A DNA stretch of 64,000 bases from Apostichopus japonicus (taxonomy: Eukaryota; Echinodermata; Holothuroidea; Aspidochirotida; Stichopodidae). Below, piece by piece: positions 19,001-64,000 of the stretch (position 1 is its first letter; each line of letters opens with the position of its first letter). The stretch covers positions 12,239,213 through 12,303,212 of the forward strand of contig NC_092574.1 in assembly GCF_037975245.1 (NCBI RefSeq). Reading direction: 5' to 3'. Under the pieces are notes generated by a model that was not told the origin of the DNA, did no database searches, and worked only from the letters and a program-made list of their open reading frames with translations. The position numbers and the translations under genes were made by a program.

Positions 19001-20703
19001 CTTGAAAAATTCAGTAGTACATTCTGATGACTCAACCTCTATAGCAGTAATGTATCTGAGATCCTAATTTCCTTGATAAATTAGGTCGTACATTCTGATG
19101 ACTCAACCACTATAGCAGTAATGTATCTGAGACCATATCTCCTTGAAAAATTAAGTCGTTCATTCTGATGACTCAACCACTATAGCAGTAATGGATCTGA
19201 GACCATATCTCCTTGACAAATAACCTGTGAGTATCTTCTCGCTCACTGTAAGGTGCTAGTGAGAAGTTGCTCACTGTCATACTCATGAGAAGTTGCCCAC
19301 TGCCTTAATGCTTTCTACTAATTAGGGATTTCGATTACTCACTGTTGGAACAAAAGAATTTACTCGGGAGGAATCTTAATTTTCTCACTTGCTCATAGTT
19401 GTGCAGTTGAGTTTGTGTTGAATACTCAGACTGCTCACTCTTTAGTAATGTCAAGTTAATCTAGTTGGTCACTATGCATTTAGCAAATTAGATTAATGGT
19501 AAGGTATTGCGGCCCGTTTGCAGACTCGTTCCTCGCGTATATATCTCTCACTGGTCCAACCATTAAAGGTATCTCCACTCTTTTCTGGTTTCTCACATGC
19601 GCTGTGTTGAAACTGTTGACTATCGGCGAGCGTTGCAATACCAACGTCCACTTGGAGATTGTTTTCATTAGTAGATGATGATAATGAATAGGATATATTA
19701 GTATTTTGAAAATTCATATCAGATGTTTAATACTGCTGTGTAGCCTACGGCCAATGTCGATGCTGTGAGGATTGCACACAACGTCTTCAGTGATGATGAC
19801 AATTAAGGCATATCTGTGACAGATGAAAAGATCTTATGTCAAAATATACTTACCATATGTTTGAGCACTAACACACGCAGCGATCAATAGTTCACCACTA
19901 TCCGGACTATCAAAACAAGGAGGGCATTCACCTTGAAAGAAGATAGAAAAAGGTGATGTAAACACACGTATTGTCAAAGAACGGTTCCGTGCCAAGTTAG
20001 CTTCATACCTAATGAATGAATTCACTCCAAGAAAAGATTGATCACTCCGAACACTTTCAATCGATTTCTCACGTGTTTGCAGTTAAGAATTTATTTTATA
20101 TTTATAAAGACATATTAAAACTGAAGAAGTTAACTCATAAACATCTGTGCAGAAGTTTTACTTTACACCGAGTATAGCAGTTTACTTCGATCATTTCAAA
20201 TGTTTAGCTTTGATGACAGAATGATATTCTTATCACTCTTCATTTGCAAAGCTTTGAGAATTAGAATAATCTTGTTGGTTCAATTGATCGATTCAGCTCT
20301 AAGGAGGCATTAGCTGATGTTAAAGAATGACCTTATGCCTAGAATGACCTAAGAATGACCTTAGGCAGAATTTAAAAGACTCGAAATGTTATAGTCAAAG
20401 ACAAATTATTATATGTTACATTTAATGCTGAAACTTTGCAATACTCCTTTAATGGTATATATGATGACTTCAGCTCCTCAGTCCGCACTGTAAGCCTAAC
20501 TTTTAATATTTATCCATTGCTTTAAAAATTAGAAAAATATTCTAGATTTCTAATGTACCATTAATACGCTTTTGTGTCCATATGGATGTTTTCATTTTGA
20601 ATCTTGTGTTGCATCTGAGGTACTAAATTCGACACAATGGTCGCTGTGTTACACTAAGTAGTCCATGCTCATTAAATTGATGAATTCAGATGTTTAAATG
20701 GTC

Positions 20704-37220: not shown

Positions 37221-40200
37221 GTAATGATAGATCTCGAAAAGTCGAAATTTGTAGCCATAACGCAGACCGATGATAGGCACAGGCTAAGCCTAACGCTAGT
37301 AAAACCTTTGCCTAACGCTAGTAAAACCTTTGACCGACATTTACTCTTCGCAACTACGCCGAAACCCACACATTAACAGTAGCCTACTTTGAGGCTAATA
37401 AAAAGCAAGACTAGGCCTAGGCTAGCTGTAGTAGTGGGCTAGTAGTAGTACTACTTAGTAGTATTTTGTTAGGATTATCGCAACTTCTCGATGCTAAGCA
37501 AACTTACTTTTAAATTAAAGCCTAGGCCTAGGTAAATGATAATATCTTTGGACTTTAAGACTAGGCTACAGTCATATGATTTCACAATTCCTTTGATCAA
37601 ATTCAGCAAAGGGCATTGCTGTGAAGTTTCAACTTTAGTTTAGGCATAGTGCTAGAGCTTGGATGCTATGTAAGTGAACAGTAATAACATGTATAGGCAT
37701 ATAGGCTAAGCCTAGAATAACCAAAATTTCGATTTCCCTTAGGCCTAGGCCTATGCAGTTTGTATACAATTTATTGTCAGATTGTATAAACAAGTTTTCT
37801 ACCCTTTTAAAAAGTACCTTACGTTATTGATTTATATATCATGTTCGTATGTATTTTACTGTAAAGCGCCTTAGAACAAATTCTGATTGGATAAGGCGCT
37901 ATAGAAATTTTATAAAATAAAATAAATAAATAAAATACATGGCCGTGGCTATTCTTACGACTAGTCATAACAATTATTTATAAACTATTCTTACGACAAA
38001 GGCGAATTCAAGGGCAGTAAAGTAAATAAAGCTAAACCCTAACCCTAAACATAACCCTAAACCTCAATCCTAACCGAAAATTATTGTTACTCCTCGTCGT
38101 AAGAATAGTACTCCTGGTCATAAAAGTAGCAACTGCGCATGCGTAGTCGGAAATTATTCTTACGACTAGTCGCAAGAATAGCCACTTTGATACTACATTC
38201 ATACTACTGTACATTATAGGCTAGGCCAGGCTATGTAGCAACTGTCTTCATGTGAGTTCTCATAGATGATATATATACAGAAATCATCTAAATTTCATAT
38301 AAATTGATATGTGGTTGCTTTATTAGTTGCAGTCTAGGCTAGACCTAACCGGTTCCAGTGCCATTCCGCCATTGGTACTGTACATACCGCCATACCATCC
38401 CGTCATAAGTTTCGATCCTTTATGCCATGGCGGAAAGGATCGAGATATATGACAGAAAGCTACAATTTCTAATTTGATTTTCGTAGAAGGATAGGTACAC
38501 CGTCTTCAAATGAAATGGTTCACTGGATAGACTTTAATTGTAGTTAAGACAAGATTGAGAATAGATCTATAGTCTTTAACGTACAGGTTGAATGAAAAGT
38601 TTTAATTGAAAGTTTGTAAGAGTCAATACACTGTCTTCAAATATCATTAAACTGCAGAATGAAGAAATTGACTGACAGCTGACAGTCTTACTGACCAGTG
38701 TGAATAGCGAGTAACCAGTTGTGATTGTAGGCCTATTTTGAAAGGAGATGTAAAATATATAATATATTGTACACCTTCCTAAGCAGCCCTGATATTCAAA
38801 AATTGGTTCTGTTTGTTTGTAGATACAACCCCTGCCCCAGACCAGTACAATGTCAGTGCATCAGCTAAGCCACAGGGTATGGCTTTGCCAACTACTGAGA
38901 GATTCAAGGAGCCAAAAGGTACAGTTTACACCTAAGGCTTCTGGGCAGGGATGCACCACATGCTTTTCTTCATGCCCCCTCAGGCAACCAGAAATTGGTT
39001 TCTTTCAAGTTTAAAACTTAAGTTCCAGGTTGTTCACCTATGGCAGACTTATACAGTATGTGGTGGAAGGCGAGGCCTTAACTGGGTGCTTGTACGGGAA
39101 GTACACTGATTGTGCAGTACCTACTGTAGCTGCCTACCTTAGTAGACCTGCAGTAGATTCTAGTACAGGGCAGGTCCAAGCTATTTGCACTGTGACGTAC
39201 GGGACATTTCAGAGACTTAAATGTGTCTAAAAGTTATAAAATATCTATTTTCCAGAAACTTTTTCAGCTTTTCATATTTGTTATTGCTGCTACTTTATTA
39301 CAAACTCATGAAGATTTCCTACACTTGCTTTAATTAGGTCCCATCTTAATTAATGTACAGTGTGACAGAGAATTTTGGACCAGAGAATTTTGTGTTTTTT
39401 TTTTACTAAAGAGCAAAGCTGAAATCCCTATGAAATTAGGAGGGCAGTGATCAAGCTGTTTTAACTAGTGAATAGCCTAACCTTCCAAGGAGTAAACTGT
39501 AACAAATTAGAAAAAAAGATGAAGCCATTCCAGTTCAGTGATTACACAAATGAAAATTGTCCTGTGACGTACGGGACATGTGACGTACGGGACAATTTGT
39601 CCAAATAAAAATTGACTATGAAAACTCATAGTTTTATTCCTGAATATACCATAACAAGCTGATTTCTACATAAAAACATTCATTTGGATATGCCAGAACA
39701 ATGTCATTGGTAATTTAATGCCATATTTCCTTCTTTCGGGGATCGAAAAGAGCAGTGACTGTACTTGTGAGATCATTCCACTACATAAAACATGGAATGC
39801 GTAAAGTATAAATCTACTCTACACATTCATCAAATACTCATAACATCAATTTTAGCTTTGTTAGACCACAAATGATCCAAGATGCAAAGTTTTGATGCAA
39901 AACTGTTTCGGTATATACTGTACAACACTGTATCATACTCCCCACTATTGACCCTCAAGTTGAAATATGATCCATCCCATTCAAAACATATCAAAATGTC
40001 CACAGTAAGGTCCACATAATGTCCATCTATGAAACTAGTACAACAAAGAAAACTCTATAGACCTAATACTGGTTACCAGACCAAATACTCATAACATCAA
40101 TTCTAGCTTTGTTAGACCACAAATGATTCAAGATGCAAAGTTTTGATGCAAAACTGTTTCGGTATATACTGTACAACACTGAATCATACTCCCCGCTTAT

Positions 40201-43200
40201 GACCCTGAAGTTGAAATATGATCCATCCCATTCAATACATACCAAAATGTCCACAGTAACATCCACATAATGTCCATCTATGAAACTAGTACAACAAAGA
40301 AAATTCTATAGACCTAATACTGGTTACCAGACCAAATACTCATAACATCAATTCTAGCTTTGTTAGACCACAAATGATTCAAGATGCAAGTTTTGGTGCA
40401 AAACTGTTTCCGGTATATTCTGTACAACACTGTATCATACTCCCCACTATTGACCCTCAAGTTGAAATATGATCCATCCCATTCAAAACATACCAAAATG
40501 TCCACAGTAACGTCCACGTAATGTCCATCTATGAAACTAGTACAACAAAGAAAATTCTATAGACCTAATACTGGTTACCAGACCAAATACTCATAACATC
40601 AATTCTAGCTTTGTTAGACCACAAATGATTCAAGATGCAAAGTTTTGGTGCAAAACTGTTTTGGTATACTGTATATACTGTACAACACTGTATCATACTC
40701 CCCACTATTGACCCTCAAGTTGAAATATGATCCATCCCATTCAAAACATATCAAAATGTCCACAGTAAGGTCCACATAATGTCCATCTATGAAACTAGTA
40801 CAACAAAGAAAACTCTATAGACCTAATATCGGTTACCAGACCAAATACTCATTCAATGTCAATGTTGAATAGCATTGTAGATGATTCTGTATCCCCCCCA
40901 CACACACACAATTGACTTCCGATAGTATATTGAACAACACCTGGCCGTTGGTGGTCATCAGTCAATGGTTTATTTGAAGCCATGTTGTGCTCTTCAGGCA
41001 TGCAGGGATTATAAGTTGCAACTACCATCTTTCAACAAAATAAATTTGTAAGCATTGGAAGGTTTCCAGTAAAGGTCCCCATTGGAGCCCATGCATGTTT
41101 ATTATGTATAAATACAGGGTTTCCCCCACACTATGTCCCGTACGTCATATTTTGTCCCGTACGTCACATTTTTAATTTTGATAATTAGATTTGCTGTGAA
41201 TATTTTTTTCAATTTTTTTTGGGATGGATTTTGTTGAACAATGTTCTTAATTAGATCTTTACAGAATATCACCAAAAAAAAATTGTTCGTCCATATCAAA
41301 ACTTGAAAAAAAAAGTGCTGAAAATTGTGACGTATGGGACATCAGTATTTGGACACTAGCTAATTAGCATATTTAATTGATGAAGCCCTAAACATATGTC
41401 AAAATTATTGGAAGGAATGTTGTATCATGTCCCACATAACTTATATTCAATAAGTTCATATTGCTGGCAGGGAAATAGTATTCCAAATGTCCCGTACGTC
41501 ACACTGCAATTTGAATTTATGCAAATTAGTCGGCTGTAATTGTTCGAATAGGCAAAACAATTAAAACAAATTATGAAAATCTGAAACTTCAATAATTCAG
41601 CTTTAACATGACACCAAATTTAGGGTGCTTCAGTAAAGTTTGAAATTTGGCTTCTAGGGATACAATAGCTTGGACCTGCCCTACAGTGCCTATTCGTGAT
41701 GAAAGCTTTCAAATATTAAATTACATTGAACATTTCCCTTACATTATGTTACTGAAGCAATGAAACATGTTAATGTGTTGTTTGTGTTTTTGGTGGAAGG
41801 CGAGGCTTAACTAGGTGCTTGTACGGGATGTACACTGATTGTGCAGCACCTACTGTAGCTGCCTACCTTAGTAGACCTGCAGTAGATTCTAGTACAGTGC
41901 CTATTAGTGATGAAAGCTTTCAAATATTAAATTACATTGAACATTTCCCTTACATCTACAGTATAGTTTTTGTAGTATGTTACTGAAGCAATGAAACATG
42001 TTCATGTGTTTTTTGTGGCCTTTGATTATATATTGTACATAGTGTTTCTTACTGGAGCCATGAAACATGTTTCTTGTGGCCTTTGGTAATATATATGCGA
42101 ATAATATAGTGTTTGTTACTGGAGCAATGAAACATGTTATAAGTTTCTTGTGGCCTTTGGTAATATTTTGTATGGGAATAATATAGTGTTCAAGTTGTTG
42201 TTCCGCAGCTATGTAGGCTCTGAAATTTGTCTCAGTTTAATTACTTGATCGGTTCTTGTATTACACATGTATATCCACACTTACATAGCAACTTGATCGA
42301 CTGGCATCTTTGCGATGCAGTACTAGTCCGATACATTTTCCTTGTATACTTTGTCCACACAGTGTGCCTGTTAAATACTGTTTATTCTCATTTTCTCTTT
42401 AGATCTGGCACCAAAGTCTCTTAACAACACGTTGTTGTTCATGTCACCTTTAAGAAAAGTATCATCTACTGAGTCTCTCGTAAGTGAAGCATACATCAAA
42501 TAATGCATTGTCAAACAACTTTGGATGTTTTTTTTAATGAATTTGTTTAACACAGCCAGGTTCTCTACTTACTCTATCAGGAGAGGCATGAAAGTTCTTC
42601 CCAAAATAGCAAAGTAGTTTCTTATAGAAAAGTAGTTTCAAATAGAAAAGTAGTTTCTTTCTGCTTATTTAAGTGTAATTATTTACCCTCATTTTAGTTC
42701 AGTAGCCGTTTCTGATGTGCCCATCGATGTGGAGTGGCATGATAAAAGAAGCACAAGTCCTATCTAGATATCTTTATCATCTTATATATGAACTAATATA
42801 TATAAAAAATAAATAACTGCTGATAACTTACTATTAATGTCAGTTTAGAGGTGACAGAACTTTGGCAATGGGAGGGGGGAGGAGAAGGATCATGTGTGTC
42901 TTACTTTCTATGCCACTCCATGGTCTGACTGACATTCTAGTTTTTAAAAAGTGAGCAGTAGAGATAAATGAGAATTGTGATTATTACTGACAATTGATGT
43001 CAGAGCTGATGTAAGACTGCTGTTGTTGAAATGTCTGGATTTTGGAACATGCATCTTCATTTGCTCCACATCCTCCATCTGGAAGTACACAAACAAAGAG
43101 GAGAGTTTCTCGCAGTCAATATGACAGAAGACTCAAGGAACTGGAATCAGAGGTTAGAAGAAAACTTGTCAAATAAGTTTGTTACCTGGTGGTAAAATGT

Positions 43201-44565: not shown

Positions 44566-45065
44566 AAAAAAATATGTAAGATGGTGTTGGTAAACTAATT
44601 ATCTCTCACAACATCCACTCGTACACAGGAAATTCTACTGTTTAGTATACATTAGTGATGGGAACGAGTACCAGGGGACCGACCGAAAAGAAATTACTAA
44701 CCAGTACACAGTAGTACATAGTGCAAGTATGATATCGTGGAGTCGTACTTTAAAGGTGCCAAAACTGTCTTGTAAGAAATTGTAAATTGTCTTGCATCAA
44801 ATTGCTTAATTTGAGCAATTAAATACAAGTATATCCCCACAAATGCTTCAAGGAATTCAATCACTCAAATCCCATTTTCACGAGTGCTGTGGTTGATGTC
44901 CTTACCTCATGATGTCAGCTTTGCATAAGTTGTATTAGATATAGCTAAATATGAGTCAAACGTTGGAATGATCAGCAGGCAAATGGTTTGACAAGCTACA
45001 GTAATTGATGTTATGTTATTACATGTCTTTAATACAAAGAAAGATTGATACTCACAGAACCAATT

Positions 45066-45113
45066 ACCCTCAGGGTGATGTGTTCTGATTCATCTTTCAC
45101 ATCCTACAGACAA
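45066..45113 (-). pseudogene. SUMO2/3-like: SUMO-like fragment, exon 2 only (copy 2)
   Basis: Same 48 nt as 6445-6492 with one base changed (GTA to GTA-like GGG context before the donor), encoding [16 protein letters not shown]. Exon 3 is not included because the block begins after it, and exon 1 with its promoter is deleted, so this copy cannot make SUMO from its own start. Confidence 0.8.
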
Positions 45114-45983
45114 AAAAAAAACAAATTGGAGAAAGTAACATTTTTGACAAAAAAGTCAGAAAAAATTATATACGCAGGTTATATGTACGCCTAGCTCACG
45201 TATGATAAATTGCAGTGCGGTATGAGTCCGGGAACTATTGGTTCACAAAATATACTGTCATACCAGAACTTAAATTCATCACAGGGCAATGCTTAGGGCG
45301 ATACAAATACAAAAAATGATGTGACCGAAAGGACTGAACCCCATTTTCCACTAAACAATTCCATTTAAAGTTGAAGGGTTGGGCGTTATTTGTCAGTTCT
45401 GTGTGCCGTGTACCAGTGTCTTTCCATAAGAATCCAAAGATCATTAAAGGGCTCGAGTAGTGAGAGATGGTTAAGGAACTAGTCTGTAGAATACTTTACA
45501 TTAAGTACTTTAAAAGGAGAGAAAACACTTCATGTCAGATACAAAAAAAAGGAAGAAAAAAAAAAGAAAACATTAGTATTACTCTAAAACGGAGAGACAA
45601 TACTCCATTACTCTTTCGGCCATGGCGGAAAGGTACATTTAAGGTATGGATTTGACCTTGGTGTACAGGAATGTATCAGGGAAGCTTTCTCTGATAAGGA
45701 AAGTATACACTGCTTCAAATGTGAAGGTTCGCTGGATAGCCTGAATTGTAGTTAAGACAATATTGGGGAGTTGATGCACTGTACATGTTGATTGAATAGT
45801 TTGAATTGTAAGTTCATTAGTGTTGATACATGATTGTCTTCAAATATATAATAGTTAGTTGAATAAATCGAATTAAATAAGGCTGATAGTTTATTAAATA
45901 GTACGATTCTGATTGTAGGTTTAAATGACTGATTTTGTGGATTTTTCGGGGCTTGGTATAGTTCATATACAAATTAATGGCGG

Positions 45984-46323
45984 AATGGCACATTTTCTAT
46001 GGCGAAAATAGCACATTTTCTATGGCGGAAAGTACCGATGGAGGAATGACACGTCCCCCGCCTATAGTAGTACAGGCAAAGCAGTTGTAAATTGCTCAAT
46101 CATTGATGCTATGTGCCTACTTTCGTGAATTCATTTAGGCCTACGTTACTATGTCTGTGTCTAGATAATAACCTTGCGTTTGGAGAAAATTCATTTCAGT
46201 TCAACTTATATTTCCGAAAGGCATGGAATCGAGGTTATTGTTCTGGAAATGCTTATTTCGATTCGCGAATTTCGGATCGCTGCTGTGTGCATGTTGTAAC
46301 GCTAGGCCTGTGTTCCTACCGTT
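45984..46323. repeat. Insertion unique to copy 2 with ATGGCGGAA repeats
   Basis: Absent from copy 1 at about 7352. It starts with short repeats of ATGGCGGAA and GCACATTTTCTATGGCG, then unique sequence to TACCGTTGGG. ATGGCGGAA also appears near 38430 and 45623. It may be a small element; ends and target duplication are unclear. Confidence 0.5.
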
Positions 46324-46679
46324 GGGCATGTTCGAGCCCAATGGCCGGTTATAGACTTCCTAGCCTAGGCCTATATCATTGTGACTAATCGGTTAGGCCT
46401 AGCCTAACTTTTGTTAGCTTTGTTTACAAGGAACAAAAAAATATTGTTCTCGATGTTTGGTGCAGGAGTTAGACTCATATATCACATTGGGTGGTGAACT
46501 CCTCAACAGCACATGCATGGTGATACATTACCTTTTTACTACTTTATTTATGTTGTCGTCGCGGAGACTTAGGTAGTCATATTGAAGTGATCTGGATAAA
46601 TCCATGTAGATTAGATTCATAGCATAAAACGCGAAATGTCATGTCAGATGCATGCTCTCTAATACGAATATGTAAGAAA

Positions 46680-47180
46680 GACGATAATCCAAGTTCAACG
46701 ATGATATTCCAAGTTTTTCGAGCGATGATACAGGTTTATCGTTGAGGAACCTGGATTTTCGACCTGTAATGCAAGTTAGGTTTAGCGGTTGATACTACAG
46801 ATTTTGCGACCGATAATCCAAGGTTTTCCATTGATAATGCAAATGTATATGGACGATAAACCTTCTTCCTTTCTTTTTATCCTAGCGACAATCCAGATTT
46901 ATCTTTTCTGTTGAAAACCTAAGAGATAAATTTATTAGTATATAGATATTCCAGGTTAATCGTGTCGCTCATCCGGGTTTTTCGACCGAAAATAGGTTTA
47001 TCACCAGATAATCTTAGATTATCAGTCGAAAGCCTGGATTTTTGACGTAAACCTGGATTTTCGATGAAAAGCTGGATTATCGGCAAAAACCGTTATTGAC
47101 ATCGTAATGCTGCTATATTCGAGATATTCCAGGTTCATGGATTGGTAATCAAGGGTTTTAAACTGTAAACCGGGAACATT
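46680..47180. repeat. Degenerate CCTGGATTTTCG repeat cluster (copy 2)
   Basis: Counterpart of 7880-8350, with one extra unit near 46946-46990 (ATTCCAGGTTAATCG) not present in copy 1. Confidence 0.7.
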
Positions 47181-48023
47181 CATTATTAGGCATTTGGTCT
47201 GCCGCATACGAGTATCAAGCGTAATAGCTGTTCCTTCCATGGGATTCGTGATTCACATTTAAAAGGAAAGGGGACTGGGGTTGCGAATGAATTAGTTAGA
47301 ATTCGTGCCCAGGCTATATATTGGGTGACTTATCCTTAAAAGTATCACAAATATACATCATGACACAAACACACTTACACACGCATGAGAGCCAAAAATA
47401 CGCGACGCATCGTCAAATTGATAATAGAAATTTTTGTATATTTCTGAAACAAACAACTGTTGAACATTTAAACTATAACTGTACCAAGATTATCAGTTTA
47501 GGAGCATATTGCGCTTAAGTACCATCCCTCCATACCATTAATTATGACCCGTTAGCTGCTCAAGTTAAACATGCACCTAACATATTTTGCGCGAAAATCG
47601 TCTCGAATGTTACCAAATTTAGCAAAAGGATGAACGTTTTCGTCAGCAAAATGGCTAAGTATCTAACGATAAGTCATATAAACGTTATATGTATTACATA
47701 TGCATTGTTCATGCATAAAGGTCACGTTGGGCTGCATCAGTACTGCGCAATAAGTGTTAATTTTCGGAATTACTGACCACCCCTTATACTGTTCCAGTGT
47801 GCGAACGCCGTTTGATGCACACATCAGTCGCACATGTTCGGTTTATAGGTTTATAGGCTCCAGTTTGGTGACTACGGTTTGTCCTTAAGTTGCCAAATGG
47901 TTTCCGTTTGCTCCTTGAATCTCAAACATCGGTTGTTAAAACTTCTACCCAAATATGCTAGGTAACTCACACAATATTTGTCAGCCATATATAGTCCTGT
48001 TTTACTGCCTCATGATTTATCTA

Positions 48024-48405
48024 ATCTCACAATCATATCGAGGTAATAAACGGATGATTTGGATTCACGAAGAGCAATGAAAAAGGAGGCAATATGTTTG
48101 TATCAATTCACCTAAATATTTGATTATACAATTTCACATGTAGTTTAGGCCACCTTGCTTAAAGTCTCTTAGTGAACCATTCACCTTGCAGTAGCTGTTG
48201 TATAGTGAAATCGTTATGACGATCTATTGTTTCATATCAAAGATTTATGGTTAATGTTTATTTCCAGTTGCCATCGGAATTTGATTTTGCGTAATATATC
48301 AATCAGAAACTAACATTGAAATATGTCATATTATTTCAGAGGTCTTTCTTAATTGTTTCATTGCAAGACGTTAGGTAAATAACACACCTCGTATTATGTT
48401 GACAA
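48024..48405. other. 390-bp segment unique to copy 2
   Basis: Between CTCATGATTT and TTGACAAACTC, where copy 1 has no such sequence. It has no coding signal, terminal repeat or clear target duplication. It may be a deletion in copy 1 instead of an insertion here. Confidence 0.5.
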
Positions 48406-50416
48406 ACTCCGGTGCAATTTTACTGTTTTAAAAACTTTCCTGCATTTAAATACAGAATTTGCCCCTACTTGATACTACAAGTCATAGTTTTACTTAATCA
48501 ACATGATTAAAGTAAATCCAAACCCCTCTTTAATCGCATTCACCCTAGTTAATCCTTTCAATAATGTTTAGAGAACAAGTTACAAAACTGGTTTAAAAGG
48601 TGAGATTTGATGTTGATCCACTTCCCCATATTAACCTGTCAGCCCATTCACTAGCTGTTGTGAGTTTCGTCTCAGATGACGTGGATTCAGCATTAAGTTG
48701 AAAATGTATACTTTTAAAGTAAATTTTATTTGTAAATATGTGAAATAATTAAGTATTTTTGTTAATTAATTAATGAGATGTCTTCTTTGTCGTCTATATG
48801 TAGACCTAATTCGTTTTAAGAGCCATCTAAAATAACAAAGACGCCTTTATATCATGAAAAGTTCATATTCGCGTATTTATTGTTATATAAATCGGCACAT
48901 CTTAAATGTTTTTAATATTCTTCGTCAACTTACATATTCTTATATTTAGTACATGATCATAGAACCATCCCCTAAGAGCGTATGTGCCCAAATGCTAAAG
49001 GATAGTTGCGACATATTGCTAATAATTTAAGTAAAGTGTAGCATAAGTTAATCTTCGTTAGCCGAAATAAAGATAAACTTCATATTGAAAAAGAAATGCG
49101 CTTCGTAAGAACACCAAAACATGCATACTTTGGTCTCGTTCTGCCAACTCATACTTTCAATTGGTCGTTCTGCGTTCAAACGGATAGGTACAGAGTGCGT
49201 CAAAACAACGGATGCTACTCTTGCAGTTTTAGATATTACTCTATTAAATTCTTTTAATAATTGAAGTTAACTTCTGTAGTAATTAACGCGTCACATTCAG
49301 TTTCTAAATACGAAATCCGGCAGAGAGAAACAGATCGCTTAAATTGTTTAGGAAATGAAAACTTTTTAAAGATTCTTTTGAAGTCTTATTGTAACCTAAT
49401 TGTGTATTGGACTTTTATACAGTACATAGGTTGTATTAGAGAACGTGTATGTATATACTTTTATGTAATATCTGGTGCGTTTGTTAATGCAGTATGCATG
49501 CGTAAAGCTTAACCAGCTCGCTTCCATGTATATAAGGGTAGAATTAACAGGAAAGCTACCAACTCATGTTAATCAGCATTCTTGAAGCATTCAGTGCAAG
49601 GCATACAGAATTTGCTATCTGCAGGTTAATTGTGACGAATGACGAGGAAAGATATGAGGATTGAGGCTTTCGGGGCGTTTGGGCCTTGATAGATACGGGG
49701 AAAGGAAATGTCGGTTCCTGCCTGGAATCATGGAAATTTATATTTACCCCTTTTGCAGTTTGTTTGAAAAAAAAGAAGCTCATAGAAAATAATTTTGAGA
49801 AACATTACTTTATTGTCAAAGACAAAGCTATATAACTATAGCACTGTTCATGAGATGTTTAGCTACCCACTCTACTACCACTTACACATTTAAAAAAGCT
49901 CGATTAATTAGTTTTCAAAAATTCATCGAATATCTACTTCAAACTAATAACTAGAAGTATAGTTAATTGATGGCGAATCACTTCATTAAAATTCTTTAGG
50001 ATGTCTCTTGTTCCAAAGATTTCCACCTTCCGGTTGCAGTTTGCAATCTCGCTCATTGGTCCCAAAGTGATACATATCCTTAATTGACCTTACTTCTCTT
50101 GATATATCCTATTCATGGGATCAAACAAACGACAACACGACATATTGATTTATAGCATGGCGACATTAGACTTAAAACAAAACTGCAGATTATTTATTGA
50201 AAGCAATTCTCCGTTCTCTTGTTATCAGAGGAAAATACATAAAATGAAATCTAGGAAAGTTGTAAGACATGCTACCCGGCTAAGTTTAACTCTAAAATTA
50301 TGGATAAAAGTGATTGGAAAAATAGATTATTAATAGCAATACCAGCTGCCACATATTCTCTAAATAATTTTAATTCCAAGTTGCTGCTTCAGGAATTAAA
50401 ATTCAACGCGTTTCAA

Positions 50417-50462
50417 TTAGTTGCAGCCACTGTTACCATCGCGGATAGGTATTCGGACTTCC
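50417..50462 (-). CDS. C3-like: C3-like copy 2 terminal exon k
   Basis: 46 nt, acceptor tatcacag, encodes [14 protein letters not shown] and stop, the same as copy 1 with one silent change. Confidence 0.7.
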
Positions 50463-53400
50463 CTGTGATATTTATTTCTCCAACGTGTCATGATTGAATT
50501 GTTGTCAATGACGTAGCGATACCTACAGATAAATAAAAACAGAGGTTTAGACGGTTGGTGGTAGTATAATGAGATGTTGTGATACTGGACCTAAGCATTT
50601 GTACTATACACCCAATAAGTAGTGATTACCATCCACAAAAGTATATATATATATATATGTATTGCAGACAACGCTTACATTTCTAACCAATTAGTGAGCT
50701 GTTGGCCTTAAAAATAACTGCAGACATGTTCGGCTAATTTTATTACTTTTGAAACTAAAGGAAAGTTTTCTCTTCATGATATCAAAATCTCATGTCTTAT
50801 TAAAGTAAAGCACGTTAAGATATAGCCATGTTACACTGAAAAAGAACCACTTGCGTACCAGCATTGAAGACCACACTGTATTCATATTATTCGTGGTAAT
50901 TCTGGGAACAAGGCAATTTTCCTATGTGTGATTTAACTGTTAGTCGAAATGTTACTATCACAAGCATTATATATAGTCATGACTCATTTCACAGAGTATC
51001 CCAGTGGTAGAAAGTACGACATGTAAATTGTTATCTTATTATCACATATATGAAGATTTTGTTTGAAACACTAGACATTGTTGATGGTTACTTATTCCCA
51101 CCAGACAAACTGTATACTTTACTCAAATACATTTATCACACGCCTATATCTTTTCTACTAAAATGTTAGCGGGTTGTCCTTGAAATGTTTCAAAAAAAGT
51201 TCACAATTAGACATCATAAATTCAACAGACAGACAAGATTAACTAGTATGGTATTTCCCTAATGTTGCGGTTCATTAATTAAGTAACATAATAAACTTAC
51301 AATTTAATCCAGTATTTTGTCCATTATGCCTGTCTATTTGCAAGAAAAGTAGCTACAAATATGCTGTTAAGAGACATGTCTTCGCAAATGTGTAAAACAA
51401 ATTCAGTTTGTCAACGGACAACCCATCTAATGAAATTCAAAGTTCGCCTCTTGTCATCGTTATATATATGTTACAGTATTACGTAACATAACATATCATG
51501 TTATGCTTCGTTGGAATCTACATACACTCACCCTTTAACCGCACCATTCCCGTGTGGTTCTGTATACTCCAATGTATTACTGCCAATTAACAAGTACTGC
51601 CTAATTCTTATATCGGGACAACGACAAGCTCTGCTGAGCCAGAACTCACGAGAGTCATGCATATGGACATCTCTTTCATCACCTTTGGAATCAAAAGAAA
51701 GGCTTGTAATTAGATATCGTTTTCTGTGGAATACTGGAAACATCATACAAATGGCAGCATTAGTTAAAACCCTTGATGGTTGAAATGTATAAATGTCTTC
51801 AAATATATACAGAAAGTTAAGCTGGCGCACGTATTGGACATCATGAGATATCGCAGAATTAATTTCAAAAAATTGTGTTGATTCTGTGCAACTTCGATAC
51901 TGCATATAAACTAAAATCAGACAAATCATAAATCGTACCAAAATCAGACAATTTCGATAGCAACGAGTGTAGCAAGTCAACACATGGGCTGCGGTCGTTT
52001 ATTACATCTGGTTTTTTGGTTCCTTTGCGATTAAAGTCTTCTTATTAATCTTTTGTGCTTATTTAATTTTCTTGGTTTCCATTTAAGGCTATTGTTGTCA
52101 AGACCACAACTAAACTCACTGCAACGTGGAATTGATTTCAATGCTAACTTCTGGCTGCAGATTCAAGTTTACAGATTGCTTTGGTATCTGTCGGTTGTTT
52201 CGCACAGTATTTCTATAATAGTCGTTGCTTACTATTACAGAGGACCATCCAACATACAACGAAGTTAATACGTTGAATGGCAGCAATTAGTAACCAAATT
52301 ATACCAGCAAGTCTAGTTTTGAACTATACAAATTGGGTTACCACCACTAGCATTTTATAACACAATATAGCATTTAAATATTGTTGTAGTAATGTTGAAT
52401 TTCCTCCATAAATCCGTCTGCAAATGTCTTTTTAATACTGCAGAAACATTCAAATTATTAATTGTCGGCACAGCGAGTGGTAAGTCATAGCCTTTATACT
52501 TTCTGGTTTATTTTCAAGTAATTCAACGTTTGAATAATGCTGTGTCCAAAAATGTCAAGGCAACGAAAGTTTCTCTTTCGAATGTAACTTAATTAGTGCT
52601 ATCTAAAAGATGTTCATTTGGTGAACGAAACTATGTATTTCGTACTATTTTTAACGTATATTTCCTCCATTTGTCATTACCTCTCTTAATTGGATCCAAA
52701 ATAGTTGCGTTGACGACTTTGTATCTGTCTTCCTCTCGTATGTTCGTAACCTGCAAATGATACACTAAACGAAGAAGAACAAAAGACAGCGAAATATTAT
52801 GAAAAAATATCTTGGTCATGTTTTGAATAGACTGCAGGATAAACAAACGCCATGGTACTGTGATAATTGTCAATATTTTGTATATACAGTCAAAACGCTA
52901 ATAATTGCTATAGTCAAACTCAAGTTCGGAAAACTATTCAACTATTCAACTTATCTTGCAGCTATCGACTATATCATGTGGCTTAGATAAAAAAAATGTC
53001 TACTGTTGGTATTTTTATTGATTTATCAAAGGCTTTCGATACCATTGATCATTCTAGTTTATTAAAGAAGCTTCTTGCTTATGGGGTACGTGGAATTTCC
53101 TATAACTGGTTTCAAAGTTATCTAAGTAATCGTATAAACTATGTATATTATAACGGAGTTACATCTGCAAGGTCCATTTGTAATGTTGGTGTTCCACAGG
53201 GTTCTATTTTAGGCCCACTTCTTTTTCTTATATACATTAATAATATTTCTCATTCTTCTACTAAGGGAAACTTTGTTTTATTTGCTGATGACACTACAAT
53301 CTTATTTCAGAAGGATAACATAACTGATGCAATTCTAGAAGCCGAAAAAGAGTTTACTCATATTATTAACTGGCTTAATGCAAATAAGTTGTCTGTGAAT

Positions 53401-56400
53401 TTATTAAAAACTAATATTCTTATATTCGACAATAAATTACATGATACTACTAATATTCCCATCAATATTGATGGCACTATTGTATTAACCACAGCAATTA
53501 CTAAGTTTCTCGGTACTATTATCGATTGTAACCTTCACTGGAAAAATCATATTTCATATATCTGTAGTAAAATTGCCGGTGCAAATCGAATTATTTATAG
53601 ATTAAAACAAAACTTTATATAATACTCTAATACTTCCACACCTGAATTATAATTTACTTGCTTGGGGAGGTGCAAATAAATCACTGTTGCATAATTTATA
53701 TAAACTGCAAAAACGTGCAGTTCGTAACATTTGTATTGCGCCGTATATTGCTCACTCGGGTCCTCTTTTTAAGAGTCTGAACGTCTTAACTATGTTTGAT
53801 TTATTTGATTATCAGCTAGGTATTTTTATGTTTAAGTTTAATAATGGAAATCTTCCTCCTATTTACAACTCATATTTTCATTATAGATATAATATGCATC
53901 ATTACAACACGAGATCTATGTATTCTCTAAACATTCCATATTCACGAACTAGACTTAGACAGACCCAGATTCGCTCAAGTGGTGTTACTCTCTGGAATTC
54001 ATTCTCATCTAATCTCACTGAATTGAATATTACTTTATATACTTTTAAAAATAGGTTGAGGAAAAAAATGATGTCGACATCATATTACATATAATTACAT
54101 GCATATTTAGACCATTCTTTAATGTTGCTGTTATTCTTTTGTAATTAGCACATTGCTAATTATTTTCTTTATTTCTTTTCCTTCTCTTTTTGTAAGGGGT
54201 CAGACTCGAAAAGCTTTGCTTATTCTGACTCCTCTACCCATCATATGTATATTTATATATACTGGTTTTTGCATATCATTTATTATATGTAAGTATATTA
54301 ATTTACTATTAATCATGTTATAAAATATAAATTAATGATGATGATGATGGTACAAATAAACTTGAACTTGAACTTGAAGTGTGAGCTACCATGCTATTTG
54401 TTGCATCATCACTACTTGCAAGCATTGAACTAAAGGATAAACTAAAGGACAACTTAAGTCGTACATTCTGATGACTTTACCACTATAGCAGTAATAATCC
54501 GAGACCATATCTTCTTGATAAATTAAGTCATACATTCTGATGACTCAACCACTATAGCAGTAATGTATTTGAAACCATATCTCCTTGATAAATTAAGTCA
54601 TACATTATGATGACTCAACCACTATAGCAGTAATGTATTAGAAACCATATCTCCTTGATAAGTTAAGTCATACATTCTGACGACTCAACCACTATAGCAG
54701 TAATGTATTTGAAACCATATCTCCTTGATAAATTAAGTCATACATTCTGATGACTCAACCACTATAGCAGTAATGTATTTGAAACCATATCTCCTTGATA
54801 AATTAAGTCATACATTCTGATGACTCAACCTCTATAGCAGTACTGGATCTGAGACCATATCTTCTTGACAAATTATTTTGTGCATTCTGATGACCCAACC
54901 ACTATAGCAGTAATGTATCTGAAACCATATCTCCTTGACAAATAACCTGTGAGTATCTTCTCGCTCACTGCAAGGTGCTAGTGAGAAGTTGCCCACAGGC
55001 TTAATGCTATCTACCATGGGCGGCGATCATGGGGGGGACGGGGGGGACATGTCCCCCCCCCCCAATATTTTAGGTGGGGGGATATGGTATCTAATATCCC
55101 CCCCCAATATTTGGTGGCATAGTTTTTTTGAAGCATTTGTTTTGTATTTTTTTATGATATCGCTAGTAATTTCAAAATAGGAAATGCTTAGATGCAACTT
55201 ACAAGGCCTGGGAAGTGCCATTTCCATTGATCTGGGAGGCATTTTCGGCCAAAATTTTCTTTTGCGCTTCGCGCCAACTTATGGTGGCGCTACGCTTAGA
55301 AAGTCTGGGTACAAGCTTTGCCCCTCCCTTGGCAAATTCCTCGCAAGGTGCCTGTCTAACCGTGTCACAATTTGTTACTATATGACCGAAAGTAGTTTTT
55401 ACTTCTTTTTTTTCGAAATGAATAGCTAGACGGACCGCTTCCGTAATGAAATTTGGTTTGACTCTTGTGTATGAGTGTCAGTACGTACAATCATATATAT
55501 GATCCACATCGATATGGATTCACTGGGTTTCCATTTGCCCTGTTTCCTACAAGATTTCTAACCGCAGGTGCGTAGCCAAGGGAGGGGGGCGAAGGGTGGA
55601 AACTGCCCCTCCCCCTCAAGCATATTTTTGGGGTATTTTCTATGATATCTAAGTTTGATAGTAGCCGTTATAAGAGGTTTTAATATTTGTACACCAATAA
55701 TTTAACTGTGTCTGAATTTTCGAAAATTCCTTGACCAACATTCTTCATCATATTTCCCTCTACTCGTTCAATTTTGACCGGTCTGTTAGGGGTTGAGGTT
55801 TTTTTTTATATTGGTTGTCTATAGATAGAATTTTTTGCAACATTATGGATATGTTTTGAAGTGAATTTATTATTCAAATTCTGAACAAATAATGGGCTTA
55901 ATACCTTGAAAATCGGGGCTGACGGGTATTGTGGGGCGTTACGTAGAATTACCTACAAAAGCAATGATCCACAGGAGATGCAATGAGGTCGAACATGATG
56001 TGTGACTGGTGACAATCTTGAAAAAAGGTTATAAATGAAAAAAAACTTGGTTCTCAGGCAAAAGTGTACATTTGGTTGGCCATTTTCAAGCCCGAGAAGT
56101 GCCATTTCCGGTGATCTGGGGGGCTATCAAAACCAGAATTTTTCTTGTACGCTGCGCGCCAACCAATGGTGGCGCTCCGCTTTGATAGTAATTCGCCTGC
56201 ACCCAAGCAAATGTCCCCCCAATATTTGAAACAGATCGCCGCCCCTGCTATCTACTAATTAGGGATTTCGATTACTCACTGTTGGAACAAAAGAATTTAT
56301 TCGGGAGGAATCTTAATTTCTTGCTCATAGTTGTGTAGTTGAGTTTATTTTGAATACTCAGACTGCTCACTCTTTAGTAATGTCAAGTTAATCTAGTTGG

Positions 56401-57625
56401 TCACTATGCATTTAGCAAATTAGATTAATGGTAAGGTATTGCGGCCCGTTTGCAGACTCGTTCCTCACGTATATATCTCTCACTGGTCTAACCTTTTAAG
56501 GTATCTCCACTCTTTTCTGGTTTCTCACATGCGCTGTGTTGAAACTGTTGACTTTCGGCAAGCGTTGCAATACCAACAACCACTTGAAGATTGTTTTCAT
56601 TGGTATATAATGATAATGAATATAATATATTATAAGTTTGAAATGAGAATTCGTATCAGATGTTTAATACTGCTTTTTCACCCACGGCCAATGTCGATGT
56701 TGTGAGGATTGCACACAATGTCTTCAGTGATGATGACAATTAAGGCATATCTGAGACAGATAAAAAGATCTTGTGTCAAAATATACTTTACCATATGTTT
56801 GAGCACTAACACACGCAGCGATCAATAGTTCACCAGTATCCGGTCTATCAAAACAAGGAGGGCATTCACCTTGAAAGAAGATAGAAGAAGATGATGAAAA
56901 CACACGTAATCCCAAAGAACGGTTCTGTGCCAAGTTAGCTTCATAATTAGTGAATGAATTCATTCCAAGAAAAGACTGATCACTCCGAACACTTTCAATG
57001 GAATTCTCACATGTTTGCAGTTAAGAGTTTATTTTATATTTATAAAGACATATTAAAACTGAAGAGGTTAACTCATAAACATCTGTGCAGAAGATTAACT
57101 TTACGGCGAGTATAGCAGTTTACTTCGATCATTTCAAATGTTTAGCTTTGATGACAGAATGATATTCTTATCACTCTTCATTTGCAAAGCTTTAAGAATT
57201 AGAATAATCTTGTTGGTTCAATTGATCGATTCAGCTCTAATGGAGGCATTACCTGATGTTAAAGAATGACCATATACCTAGAATGACCTAAGAATGACAT
57301 TAGGTCGATATGTAATAGCCAAAGACAAAATTATATTTTACATTTAATGCTGAATCTTTGCAATACTTCTTTAATGAAAAGTATATATATGATGACTTCA
57401 GCTCCTCACTGTAAGCCAAATTTTGAATATTTATCCATTGCTTTAAAAATTAGAAAAATATTCTAGATTTCTAATGTACCATGAACACGTTTTTTGTGTC
57501 CATATGGATGTTTTCATTTTTAATCTTGTGTTGCATCTGAGGTACTAAATACGACACAATGGTCGATGTGTTACACTAAGTAGTCCATGCTAATTAAACT
57601 GATGAATTCAGATGTTTAAATGGTC

Positions 57626-57671
<46 letters not shown>

Positions 57672-57675
57672 CATA

Positions 57676-57728
<53 letters not shown>

Positions 57729-57804
57729 TGTGTGTATATGTGTGTGTGTGATGGTGTAGACATTCATATGGACAGAAAGAAGTATTTTTAGTAAATGCAA
57801 CATT

Positions 57805-57868
<64 letters not shown>

Positions 57869-60800
57869 GCTACTTAACGTTGTTGTTATTGGATGTCAGT
57901 ATCAATAGAGTATAGATTAATTTACATCAACTGGAAAATCTGTTCTGAGATAACCAAGTTAAGAACGTCTGTGTGGTCTGATCTGCATTGTCATGCCATG
58001 TTGTGTATTATTGCCCCAATCTTGTTTCTTTGCTTGTAGGTATACCATTATTGTATACAAGTATAGATAATACAATGGAAGTATGCACATCTCCTAATTA
58101 ATCTACCAATTATGTTAATGAATTGAATTGTATTTTTCAGGTAGATATAGAAGAGATCGTGGTACATTTTAATGAAGCACATGCACTGTTCCAGTTTTCC
58201 TCATTTTTAATGTGCTTTCGTTACAAGTCATGATTAAAAGAAGTGTGACAAACTGTTGTCTAATGAAATGTTTTTATCACGGGATGGACATTTACTCCGA
58301 GAAGGTATATTTGCCTAGGTACTAAACTGATGTGGTGATGGTGCAGGACTTTCCTCGAGAACTCTATTCGAGACAACCCCGCTCCCCCTTTCCCCCTTCC
58401 GTGCCCGCCTCCATCATAACAGATGCAACCGGAGAAATTACTTTCATGGAAAATTTCCCCTGAATGATACAATAATAAAAACATTTGATTATATTCAAAT
58501 CAGGAAATCCGATTCAACTGAGCCAATTAGAAGCACAATGGACCATTCATAGAATCGATTTACCTCCCTACAACCGGACTAATTATTCACTAGTGTAGAA
58601 AATTACGTGGGAATGGCTTTAACCTGTCGGTTAGGATAGTCAGTGGATCCCGTGAGGGTGTTTTATAGGCCTACTGTCACACGAGGGGTACAAACCTGAC
58701 TTTTACATCACACATGAAATAAATTTCCATCAGCTCAGCCTTTATGACATGGATCGACTTACTTGAAATACAAGTACATTCGTCATCGTTACACAGCGTC
58801 TGTACTACATTTGAACCTTCTCCTGTATAGAATTGTATGCACTCCTCATCTATAAAAGAACAGATTGAAAAGATCATTAAAAAATAAAATTATGAAAACT
58901 CACTTCGAAACTAATGTGTGATATTAAAATATGCCTATATGATATGAACTACATGCTGTTAATTGTTGACATAAGTTGCCAGTTTGAGCATGATTAAACG
59001 TTAAATAGCAACCATCATGATCATTATTCAATGATATAGCCCAATTCAAGTCCTATTAGACTCTTGGAGACGTCTGAATAATTTGTGTAACAGCTGCAAC
59101 GGACATTGCAAAGTTACACCTGTGATATCATCATATACGATGTGGAGTTATGATATGAATTAATATAGCATACGATATGCATATGATATGATTCGCCGCC
59201 TAGAAAATAATACATTAAATGTGTTTTGTGGAGTATATGTCTACATAACTCACATATGCAAGGAAACCAATGTTCACACACACGGTTAACCTAGCCGAGT
59301 TTGTACACGTGCGTCATTACAATTTTACAGAATGCAGGCCTATATACTTCCCTATACGTCAGAACGCTATACATAAACTTACATATCTCCGTATATAAAT
59401 GCGGGTCGCTTGCGCGGCCCAATATGGAAGGACCTTTCGTTATATTTTATGAACACAATGATGTATATAAGGACAAAAATAGTTCTTCTTGCATTTGGCA
59501 GAGTCGGTCGGAAATAAATGAAACATTTACTGAATTGGATTTGATCATTTGAACGTGAAAAGCTACTACTGTTATTACTCAAGACGACATATTTGCATTT
59601 TATGGGATTTCTCGATTGTGGTTTTCGTATTGAAACGTGGCTTCTCGTCTGAAGCCGAAACCCGAGGCATCCTTTCTCTTAGAAGGGGGACATCTCCTCA
59701 CTGACAACCAGACAGTCCAGATATGGGTATCTCTGGGCAATTAATGACCCGAGAGCAATCAAATTAAGGACTAAGGGGTTTATGAGGCGAACCCCGGAGC
59801 TCTGCAGTGACGCTGCTAGCCATCATCGCAGCGTGTACAGAACTGACAAACACACGTGCAAAAGCTATGTGCACAACTAACGCTACATACAGCCTATTAC
59901 GTAACAACACAAAAATATGCATAGGGTGCAAACTACAAAATTTGGCTTCACTACAGTATTATTGGATTAGACTATTGAGAAGTTGGGAAGTGCATGGATA
60001 GAAAGATTAAAAGACCATGTAAGGTTATATGCAAACGTGAACTCGAACCTTATGCCTGGCAAGTTGTGGCAACCGTATACATGTTTAACGATTTAATTCA
60101 TTGGAATTGTATTCCATGTGTAGCCTAGTGTAGATACGAGGAACAGAAGCAATTTACAGATACGTTTAACTTAAAATCAGGAAAATCATCACGCTTTATA
60201 TGAAGTATTAGTTACTAACCTGGATCGTAATAGTCATACACTCTAACAGCTGCGTGATGAATGTTGGTGACGTTGAATGCACACGTAGCCTGAAATTCAA
60301 AGCTTATAGAGCCTTCGCGTTGTATGGGAAAGTAATCAGTATAGAAAATAACTGAACGGTCTGACACTTCATATCTTGCGACAAAGCTATTCTCTTTTAC
60401 GACCTGTTATAGGTGAAAAAGTTGCATGGATGAAGTTAACATATAACTCAGATAATGCGATCGCGTATTATAGTTATATCCATGAATACTTACACAAAAG
60501 CTTACAAATATTAATTATTACAGAGATATCGGCATATATTAGTACCACGAAAGAAATAATTTACTAGTATTAGCCTGAAAGTTGGTATATGTATAACACG
60601 AAAGAAATAATTAACCACTTGTGGCGATATGTGATTTGATTTATAAAAGTATTATCACATTTTCAATTATAGCAATCATAATTAAAACAAAAACAGATAT
60701 AGAATATGCCACGCGCCGTTCCTGAGTAGCTGTCCATGAGTTGCAGCAATTTGTGAATGAGTTGAAATTCCTTTGAAAACTTATTGGAAAAGATGGAAAG

Positions 60801-62252
60801 TTTATCGTATGACTATAGGCAGTCATAAGTCGTAGATCGACAATATCGTTAAATGTACGAGAAATCGATTTCTGATGAGTTGCGCACAACTGACAATTTC
60901 CGTTTTCTCGATGTTTCATTCAAGTTCTATGATTATGATTTGACGAAATCGGCATATGTCAAATTAAATTGACACCTGACATTTTCTAGCAACTGTGAAA
61001 AAAAGCCTCCCAGATTGCAGGAAATGGCCCTTCCCGAGCTTGAAAAAAAAGACTTCTGTGCGTTCTCCCTTGTCTGTTTGTGTACCCGATTAATCTTCTG
61101 AAAGACATTTTTGAAGTATGTTTCATTTTGGTTCTTATTTTTTGCCATTTTTTTTCCTTAGTCCTACTCCTTTTTTTTTTGGCGCCGTGAATATTGGTCC
61201 GGCGTTCACCGGACCTGCCGTACCTGCTCCGACGCCCCTGGTTTGTTGTCGATATTTTTAAACCCTTGTCATGCAAAAAGAAATTGAAACGTAAACCATT
61301 ATGAGTAATAGTCTCTGCTCAAGAAACTAGTTCAAAGACGGTAAACGTTTTAAAATTGTAGGTTTTGTGATTTATTCATATTTCTGTAGTTTGAGGAAAC
61401 TGCTGAGGATGTTCTTAAAACAGGCTTGTCTAAATATGGCCTACGGTATACTCTCACTATTAATGAGATGTTTTAAACATATACGCTGGTAAAAACATAG
61501 CTACCTCGTTCATGCAGTCATAAATCAAACAATGATATCAATAATACTGACGCATACTGAACTTCATGCCTCCGAAGAAAATATTACAAAAATAAATTGA
61601 CATTGGTTGATTTTGTCATAACGAGTAAATGATCAACATTACCTTTTCGCAGCTCGTCTTATTTGGAGTAAAACCTGTGAATAGTCCAAAATCTATAATA
61701 CCCATGCTGGTGTTGGTGTCGCCCAAATAGCTACAAAAATCAGAACGTGCAGGTATGAACGATTTAGTTGGAGGAAGTAACTTGTTTATAATCAACACCG
61801 CTACACATAAACAAAAGAGATTTGCAATGTGTCAAATTTGGTGCTATAGTTTGGATATTATAGTCTAACTGCTCATTTTATCAACTAAATGAGCCTTAAC
61901 CGAACAAATCATTTGTCTCTCAACAAAGACACCTAATGCTTTGAATTCTTACCATTCGAGAAACAGGATTAAATTGTACTAATTGCATTGTGAATTAAAT
62001 ATTCCCAAACTACTGAATACGTAGTTTTCTATTCCACAACCATCATGTACAATTTTATCATTTCTTTATGTGCCATTCAAAAGTAATTTTTACCTAGCAT
62101 TGCATGTCAAGTTGTTATCTTCATTTACTTCTCATTTTAAATATATATTTTGGAGGCTTTTCTTTCACAGAAGTCAACTCGATTATTCTTCAGTATAACA
62201 CGTTAGCATGTTATAAGAGAGTAATGACGTCAAGTTCACAAGGAAATATATG

Positions 62253-62283
<31 letters not shown>

Positions 62284-62493: not shown

Positions 62494-63496
62494 CTATAGT
62501 GGAATATATTTGTTGATAATCAATCCAACACGCACAATAATATCATATTCACCAAGGAAGACAGTAGTTTGGATGGACAAAGAATGATGCCTTAAGCTAC
62601 AATAGATTATCTATGAGGCTTTTCATAGCTGTCATATCGTTCCTAACAAGCCGTATAGATACAGCTCTAGATAATATTAAGCGTCACTTATACTATTTAC
62701 AGATCTCCAAAGATTTTGGAAAGCGCTGTAACATATGATACCTTAACATATGTGATGGTTGTGAAAATATGCTTGAAAAGATGTCGTCTTGTGATCAGCG
62801 TAAGTGATTAGTTTCGGGACACTAGAAAGGGCTCATATGACAGAGCCCTATCTTAATTAAGGACGTGTCTGGAGATCCCAAGGTTTGAACAAGAGCGAAA
62901 AACATAAACAACATGTTACGTAATGCGCAGCACACCTATACATACAGAACCTGAGAGCCTAAACGTCATATCGTCTTTATATGATTGACGATGTTATAGC
63001 AAGTTTTCTTTCAACTAAGTATCACCAACTGTGATTTATGGAGCTCCATTTCAATTCGATAGTAGATGAGAACATGGTCCAAAGAAGTGGAAACAAATGA
63101 TATAGCTGCAACATGCATTTGTACGTATACATTATATTTGATGCGACGCCGTCTTCTCTCTATTGCAAAATATTAGTTTTATCTTAAAATTACCATCAAG
63201 TGTGCAGTTTATTAGAATAGATTACTTGTATCATACGATGATGTATAACCTCCACTCGGACCAATCTAATTTAACGTGCTTAAATACTTTCCAAAAATAT
63301 ATTTGCTAACGTTAACCTCCAAATGTGTTTACACAGTTTACAAAGTGTATTTTCACGCCACAGCATGCTCTGGTGTTCAAAATGACGTGATATGGACTTT
63401 ACACATAACTAACATAGTGCAAGTCTTTCCATTGTATCTCAGGCTAATGCAATTTATATTTTTTCGGGATTGGTTAAATCTGATAGATTGGCACTT

Positions 63497-63640
63497 CTCT
63501 CATGTTCCGTGAACATTGGTGTCTTGTTAATGAAGAAATCCAATTCATGATTTGGTTGCTGAACTCAGTCTTGTTCACAATTTAACTATCCTAAATTTGA
63601 TAAATCGTTTCAGCAAAGCTTACCTCTGAAATGTGTCTAT
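63497..63640. other. 145-bp segment unique to copy 2
   Basis: Between CTGATAGA and TGTCTATTTG, which are adjacent in copy 1 (26275). No structure recognised. Confidence 0.5.
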
Positions 63641-63871
63641 TTGTTTACAATGTCGATTTATGTTTAGGCTGTTCGTTATAATAAATTACAAGTTAAAAAT
63701 GAAATTCTTGCCGTACATTTAATGTTCCAGTTCCCTCTCCTTGCGTTTCCACCACAAGTCGGTCTCTAATGTTCTCTTTCGGTACCTAAAAATAAATCAA
63801 GACAATCAGTTATTACAATTATCATTGATCTGAACTGTATATCCTTGATAAGTCACCTGATTTCCACGATA

Positions 63872-63873
63872 TA

Positions 63874-63907
<34 letters not shown>

Positions 63908-63920
63908 ATATATATATATT
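63872..63920. repeat. (TA)n microsatellite
   Basis: TA tract with one TTTA break. Homologous to 26510-26745 but without the SINE. Confidence 0.9.
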
Positions 63921-64000
63921 TGGTTGGGTGGTTTCTACCTTGGCGTATCGTGCTCTGTACGTGTGTGTGTGTTAGATGTACGAATTCCGTAAATATGATT

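Follow-up and report, generated by a model that had tools for sequence, protein, structure and literature searches.

Described DNA transposons offer several points of comparison for a 2,514-bp insertion that we analysed in the sea cucumber Apostichopus japonicus (NCBI RefSeq assembly GCF_037975245.1, contig NC_092574.1, positions 12,239,213 to 12,303,212), and which lies at 39168–41681 of this 64,000-nucleotide stretch (hereafter, the window). For the PHIS group (PIF/Harbinger, Pangu, NuwaI, NuwaII, ISL2EU, and Spy), the printed account is of elements that make no target duplication or one of 1–4 bp (PMC10045372). Within this group, the duplications printed are ANT for Pangu and CWG for NuwaI, with NuwaII left undecided between TNA and CTNAG, and the terminal inverted repeats (TIRs) usually start with AG or GG in Pangu and with GGG in NuwaI (PMC4482050). 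Target preference in PIF/Harbinger extends to 9 or 15 bp (PMC2836001), and in zebrafish Harbinger3_DR a Myb-like protein is described as binding a 9-bp subterminal motif (PMC9710019). KolobokP, as printed, has 5'-RR..YY-3' ends, 11–18-bp TIRs, non-TTAA duplications of 3–5 bp, and end repeats of ~450 or 660 bp (PMC9587614). Among elements with conspicuous internal repeats, Galileo of the P superfamily carries repeats near its ends, secondary binding sites, long TIRs, and 7-bp duplications (PMC3573991), and Tetris of Drosophila virilis is a non-coding foldback element with ~220-bp tandem repeats in its TIRs and 8–10-bp duplications (PMC4079207). Lastly, the size given for miniature inverted-repeat transposable elements (MITEs) is 100–500 bp (PMC2836001). 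Here, we find that the sea cucumber insertion is bounded by exact TIRs and matched by an uninterrupted copy of its target, and we consider it probable that it consists of two nested non-autonomous elements, the inner of which would have a repeated 15-bp motif at its termini.

Outer boundary and paralogous empty site

The outer features are listed below in window coordinates.

39168–41681, no strand: whole insertion, 2,514 bp, delimited by comparison with the uninterrupted repeat unit
39164–39167, forward: left copy of the outer target duplication, TACA, as read from the sequence
39168–39185, forward: left outer TIR, GGGCAGGTCCAAGCTATT, the exact inverse of 41664–41681
41664–41681, reverse: right outer TIR, the exact reverse complement of the left TIR
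41682–41685, forward: right copy of TACA, as read from the sequence
41786–41996, forward: uninterrupted neighbouring direct-repeat unit, the paralogous empty site, with TACA at 41893–41896

An earlier note on this DNA had reported exactly inverse ends of 18 bp and an uninterrupted target in a nearby direct repeat, and both observations hold. In fact, GGGCAGGTCCAAGCTATT at 39168–39185 and its inverse at 41664–41681 are the only two matches to this sequence in the whole window when up to three mismatches are allowed (0.03 expected). Moreover, 30 dinucleotide-shuffled versions of the window contained no perfect inverted repeat of at least 17 bp with starts 100–4000 bp apart. The flanks of the insertion are part of a 211-bp direct repeat, the second unit of which is uninterrupted, and alignment of the insert-removed target with this neighbouring unit gave 164 identities, six mismatches, and one 1-base gap over 171 columns, with no differences at the junction. 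Just past the aligned stretch, one of the two repeat units has 20 extra bases. What serves as the empty site here is a paralogue, namely the other copy of the repeat, rather than an allele that lacks the insertion.

The TACA duplication that had also been reported is indeed present on both sides, but its extent is ambiguous in this one copy, as a duplication of 2 bp (AC), with a 19-bp TIR starting AGGGCAGG, is also compatible with this alignment. Here, a direct repeat of at least 4 bp arises at one of four boundary registers in 2.8% of 200,000 random position pairs, so TACA by itself is weak evidence, and it is the empty site that argues strongly for insertion. Together, the exact TIRs, the empty site, and the absence of equivalents in the shuffles indicate that the insertion is real. 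Judged from the sequence of one copy and a paralogous empty site, the locus shows the hallmarks of a non-autonomous cut-and-paste DNA transposon (TIRs, target duplication, and empty site).

Motif array and inner boundary

According to the earlier note, a 15-bp motif, GTGACGTACGGGACA, occurs at least seven times, once with a single change, and mostly forward near the left end and inverted near the right. Allowing up to three mismatches, we found seven matches in the 64 kb (0.40 expected), all within 39192–41502, a number reached in none of 100 shuffles. Five copies are exact, while two, rather than one, carry a change; the orientations are as had been described, with three forward copies on the left, and three inverted and one forward on the right. 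The motif copies and the features of a second, inner boundary are as follows.

39188–39192, forward: left copy of the direct repeat CACTG, the putative inner target duplication under nesting (5 bp, or only ACT at 39189–39191)
39192–39209, forward: proposed left inner TIR, GTGACGTACGGGACATTT, the exact inverse of 41485–41502
39192–39206, forward: motif copy 1, exact, inside the proposed left inner TIR
39564–39578, forward: motif copy 2, exact, from the motif scan
39580–39594, forward: motif copy 3, exact, forming a close pair with copy 2
41134–41148, reverse: motif copy 4, one change, from the motif scan
41153–41167, reverse: motif copy 5, exact, forming a close pair with copy 4
41327–41341, forward: motif copy 6, one change, from the motif scan
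41488–41502, reverse: motif copy 7, exact, inside the proposed right inner TIR
41485–41502, reverse: proposed right inner TIR, holding motif copy 7
41502–41506, forward: right copy of CACTG (or only ACT, 41503–41505)
39192–41502, no strand: span of the proposed inner element, non-autonomous and 2,311 bp long (2,309 bp with a 5-bp duplication)

The inner boundary is a second inverted repeat, formed by the motif itself, which ends at 39192/39193 and 41501/41502, is exact over 17–18 bp, and is flanked on both sides by an exact CACTG. Across the window, we detected 120 pairs of inverted repeats of at least 12 bp, among which four have a direct repeat of at least 4 bp at or near their ends, and two of these four are the outer boundary (with TACA) and the inner boundary (with CACTG). 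A direct repeat of at least 5 bp at one of four registers was seen in 0.8% of 200,000 random pairs. Excising the inner part plus one CACTG leaves exactly 200 bp, and this outer sequence, beyond the boundary bases, has no motif copy. More conspicuously, the motif nearest to an outer end lies 24 bp away on the left versus 179 bp on the right, and the close motif pairs are located 373–403 bp (left) and 336–369 bp (right) from the inner ends. As these pair distances are similar on both sides, the layout of the motif is symmetrical about the inner, not the outer, ends. Nesting accounts both for the unequal spacing from the outer ends and for the outer 200 bp being without a motif of its own.

On this sequence evidence, we regard the insertion as probably two nested non-autonomous cut-and-paste DNA transposons, with the motif forming the termini of the inner one. 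The outer element would be an ordinary MITE of ~200 bp with ends GGGCAGG...CCTGCCC and a TACA duplication, into which a 2.3-kb non-coding element with ends (G)TGACGTACGGGACATTT would later have entered, 20–25 bp from the outer left end. Its target would have been the 11-bp palindrome TTGCACTGCAA, of which CACTG or only the central ACT would have been duplicated; owing to this palindrome, readings of 5, 3, and 1 bp are all possible for the inner duplication. The five further motif copies (a close pair per side, 336–403 bp from the inner ends, plus a single copy) may serve as extra binding sites for the transposase of the inner element or for its DNA-binding partner, a proposal made by parallel with the secondary sites of Galileo and the motif bound by the Myb-like protein of Harbinger3_DR. 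Both elements would be mobilised by proteins encoded elsewhere in the genome, and a central 251-bp array would have arisen by tandem amplification.

Several observations weigh against nesting. The inner TIR continues into its flanks as TTGCA[C/G]TG, for a total of 25 bp with one mismatch, and this favours a single element; such a longer inverted repeat is a second way to read these bases, the flanks being palindromic (TTGCACTGCAA). Palindromes of this arm length are scarce (109 of 63,960 positions), so that nesting requires a lucky or a preferred target, a coincidence that would be eased if the transposase favours symmetrical targets. PIF/Harbinger targets are palindromic. Moreover, TG precedes the motif in four of the five internal copies and at both ends, an accident if the duplication is of 5 bp, and a milder one if it is of 3 bp (ACT, with the TIR starting at 39192). 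Motif copies 2 and 7 share 14 of their 21 upstream bases; under nesting, the upstream bases of copy 7 would be outer DNA, so this agreement leans towards one element. The joined 200 bp gave a folding z of −5.2 relative to shuffles with its TIRs and −0.6 without them; with the signal coming from the TIRs only, folding is of no help in choosing between the readings. Each of the two elements is represented by one copy.

The foremost alternative is the single transposon of the earlier note, 2,514 bp long, non-autonomous, and bounded by the 18-bp TIRs. Its subterminal transposase-binding sites would be the motif copies, carried in an inner 25-bp inverted repeat with one mismatch. This would make sense of the longer inner repeat, of the TG that stands before six of the seven motif copies, and of the upstream bases shared by copies 2 and 7 (14 of 21). 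On the other hand, it requires that one end has lost or gained ~155 bp, and both the exact CACTG repeat (0.8% of random pairs) and the placement of the boundary at the motif become accidents. Thus, nested and single-element readings each require a coincidence. Of the earlier interpretation, a transposon-type insertion with an empty site stands, whereas a single element appears to us possible but less likely than a nested pair; these weights are judgements, not computed odds. If there is one element after all, its unequal ends and TACA duplication would merit a family description.

Rather improbable is the bolder form of the same idea, namely a single element of an undescribed superfamily, which would have GGGCAGG..CCTGCCC termini, make 4-bp duplications of the TNNA type, and bind its transposase at an array of the 15-bp motif with its CGTACG core. 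Here, the first motif site would stand at unequal distances from the ends, as if the transposase distinguished left from right. The suggestion of a little-described family finds no support, as the 4-bp duplication comes from one copy and is ambiguous, and similar ends, TIR lengths, and non-TTAA duplications have already been printed for KolobokP (PMC9587614), and nothing that we found requires a new superfamily.

Slighter still is the chance that the inner part and the outer element arrived together as one unit, the outer element being an unusual form (e.g., a solo end repeat) within some known superfamily, KolobokP-like or other, in which case the two sets of ends would never have been separate insertions in this genome. 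The GG..CC ends, the 18-bp TIR, and the 4-bp non-TTAA duplication do fit the pattern printed for KolobokP (PMC9587614), though they are not specific to it. In contrast to KolobokP, long terminal direct repeats and a transposase are both lacking here, the longest internal direct repeats being those of the central array, and 200 bp is far below the ~450 or 660 bp printed for end repeats (PMC9587614). The last option, that no transposon is involved and the inverted repeat arose by chance amid the many tandem repeats of the window, we consider negligible given the shuffles and the exact paralogous empty site.

If the insertion is nested, it illustrates that a single insertion may be mistaken for an unknown transposon when its outer duplication and its inner motif array come from different elements, and combining the two would define a chimeric family. 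The putative inner element is itself of modest interest, as a terminal motif found in five further places would lend itself to testing the role of multiple transposase-binding sites, and the 251-bp array at its middle is a possible seed of satellite DNA.

Internal content and genomic surroundings

Coding capacity was not found inside the insertion, where the longest listed open reading frame has 67 amino acids and no stop-to-stop frame reaches 110. A Pfam search with the six read-through frames gave no match at or above the curated cut-off, and one below it, over 19 residues. The main internal feature is the tandem array.

39831–40852, forward: tandem array inside the insertion, 4.0 copies with a period of 251 bp (94% matches), free of motif copies

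In the rest of the 64-kb window, neither the outer TIR nor the motif recurs, and a blastn search of the element against it returned as best hits two short matches with an E of 0.47; the window thus shows neither a further copy nor a partner with a transposase. Exact patterns for the outer TIR, the motif, and the tandem motif each had zero matches in IMG/VR. A search of GTDB with a 16-bp motif gave 16 matches at 15 loci, all in bacterial or archaeal records, with no likeness in the 45 bases on either side. Of 127 papers with one or more of five short strings in their text, the 20 listed were all on different topics judging by title, with tgacgtacggga occurring in one of these 20 and the full motif in none.

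The window has a guanine-plus-cytosine content of 32–40% in 2-kb steps, long TA arrays, and a reverse transcriptase at 52987–53619 (Pfam RVT_1), and on these features it looks like nuclear DNA from an animal or a comparable eukaryote. A direct segmental duplication (5946–26829 and 44567–64000) is 93% identical over 15,415 aligned positions, and the many insertions and deletions that break it give further paralogous empty sites. Within it, the tandem repeats at 18670–19221 and 54454–54943 correspond to each other, as do the 22-bp pairs at 6141 and 44762. As the insertion sits between both copies, this duplication provides no second empty site within the window, and a second copy of the insertion site might lie beyond the right end of the window, within the segmental duplication. 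A 361-bp stretch (45964–46324) in one copy of the duplication is missing from the other at 7352, and is possibly a small mobile element.

A foldback-like structure at 11489–13007 falls within sequence that the other copy of the segmental duplication lacks; its arms of ~546 bp (11489–12034 and 12466–13007) are 93.6% alike and filled with ~145-bp repeats. The other two of the four pairs from the inverted-repeat scan fall here, being two AAGGGATGGGCATT pairs at 11858–12346 that have TACA at their ends, like the outer element, and we take these as part of the repeat-rich foldback structure.

A tRNA-like sequence at 4389–4463 is called by ARAGORN as tRNA-Cys (anticodon ACA) and scores 47 bits against the Rfam tRNA family, the sole Rfam match in the whole window at gathering scores; it is perhaps the head of a tRNA-derived short interspersed nuclear element. 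Closer to the insertion, an exon-like stretch at 38823–38920, preceded by AG and followed by GT, has one open frame, TTPAPDQYNVSASAKPQGMALPTTERFKEPKG, for which there was no Pfam match at 0.001 and no usable relative in the PDB. If this is a real exon, the insertion would be intronic or just downstream.

Comparison with described families

Members of the hAT superfamily make 5–8-bp duplications and have YARNG ends. The outer element has at most 4 bp duplicated, and although CAGGG...CCCTA would suit such ends, this choice leaves no duplication; the ends of the inner element do not fit either. Nor is there the TA duplication of Tc1/mariner, the outer duplication being TACA or AC and the inner one CACTG, ACT, or C; the earlier note had likewise seen no match to either group. 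Ordinary Kolobok, with its TTAA duplication, and piggyBac, with TTAA and CC..GG ends, were likewise set aside for an outer element with TACA or AC and GG..CC ends. For Sola2, a 4-bp AT-rich duplication is described, AWWT in the families covered (PMC3627910), which TACA does not fit. Alternatively, the inner element could be made to start elsewhere. Starting at TGT, with the TG conserved before the motif, leaves a 1-bp duplication. A start at CAC, as in the EnSpm/Transib type for which CA..TG ends are printed, gives CAG at the right end, with no duplication beyond it.

With one copy of each, we assign neither element to a superfamily. As a first guess, with a chance of about one in three, the inner element may be of PIF/Harbinger-type (PHIS) origin. 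Its possible 3-bp duplication resembles those printed for this group, as does its extended target, together with its subterminal repeats. When set against the PHIS types (TWA, AT, ANT, CWG, and TNA), ACT fits the ANT of Pangu, though CACTG and C fit the sequence equally, and the choice between 3 and 5 bp recalls the one likewise left undecided for NuwaII (PMC4482050). However, the inner TIR starts with GTG or TGA, unlike the usual AG or GG of Pangu and the GGG of NuwaI, and so agrees fully with no pattern of the group; the target fits none of TWA, CWG, and CTNAG; and the inner element is without a transposase or a Myb-like gene.

Looking beyond this group, the extra transposase-binding sites that we propose near the ends of the inner element would parallel those described for Galileo, whereas here the TIRs are short and the duplications no longer than 5 bp. 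Tetris is similar in being non-coding with internal tandem repeats, of 251 bp in our case, but the array here is central. The outer element, if nested, is most like a MITE, being 200 bp long, non-coding, and bounded by short TIRs.

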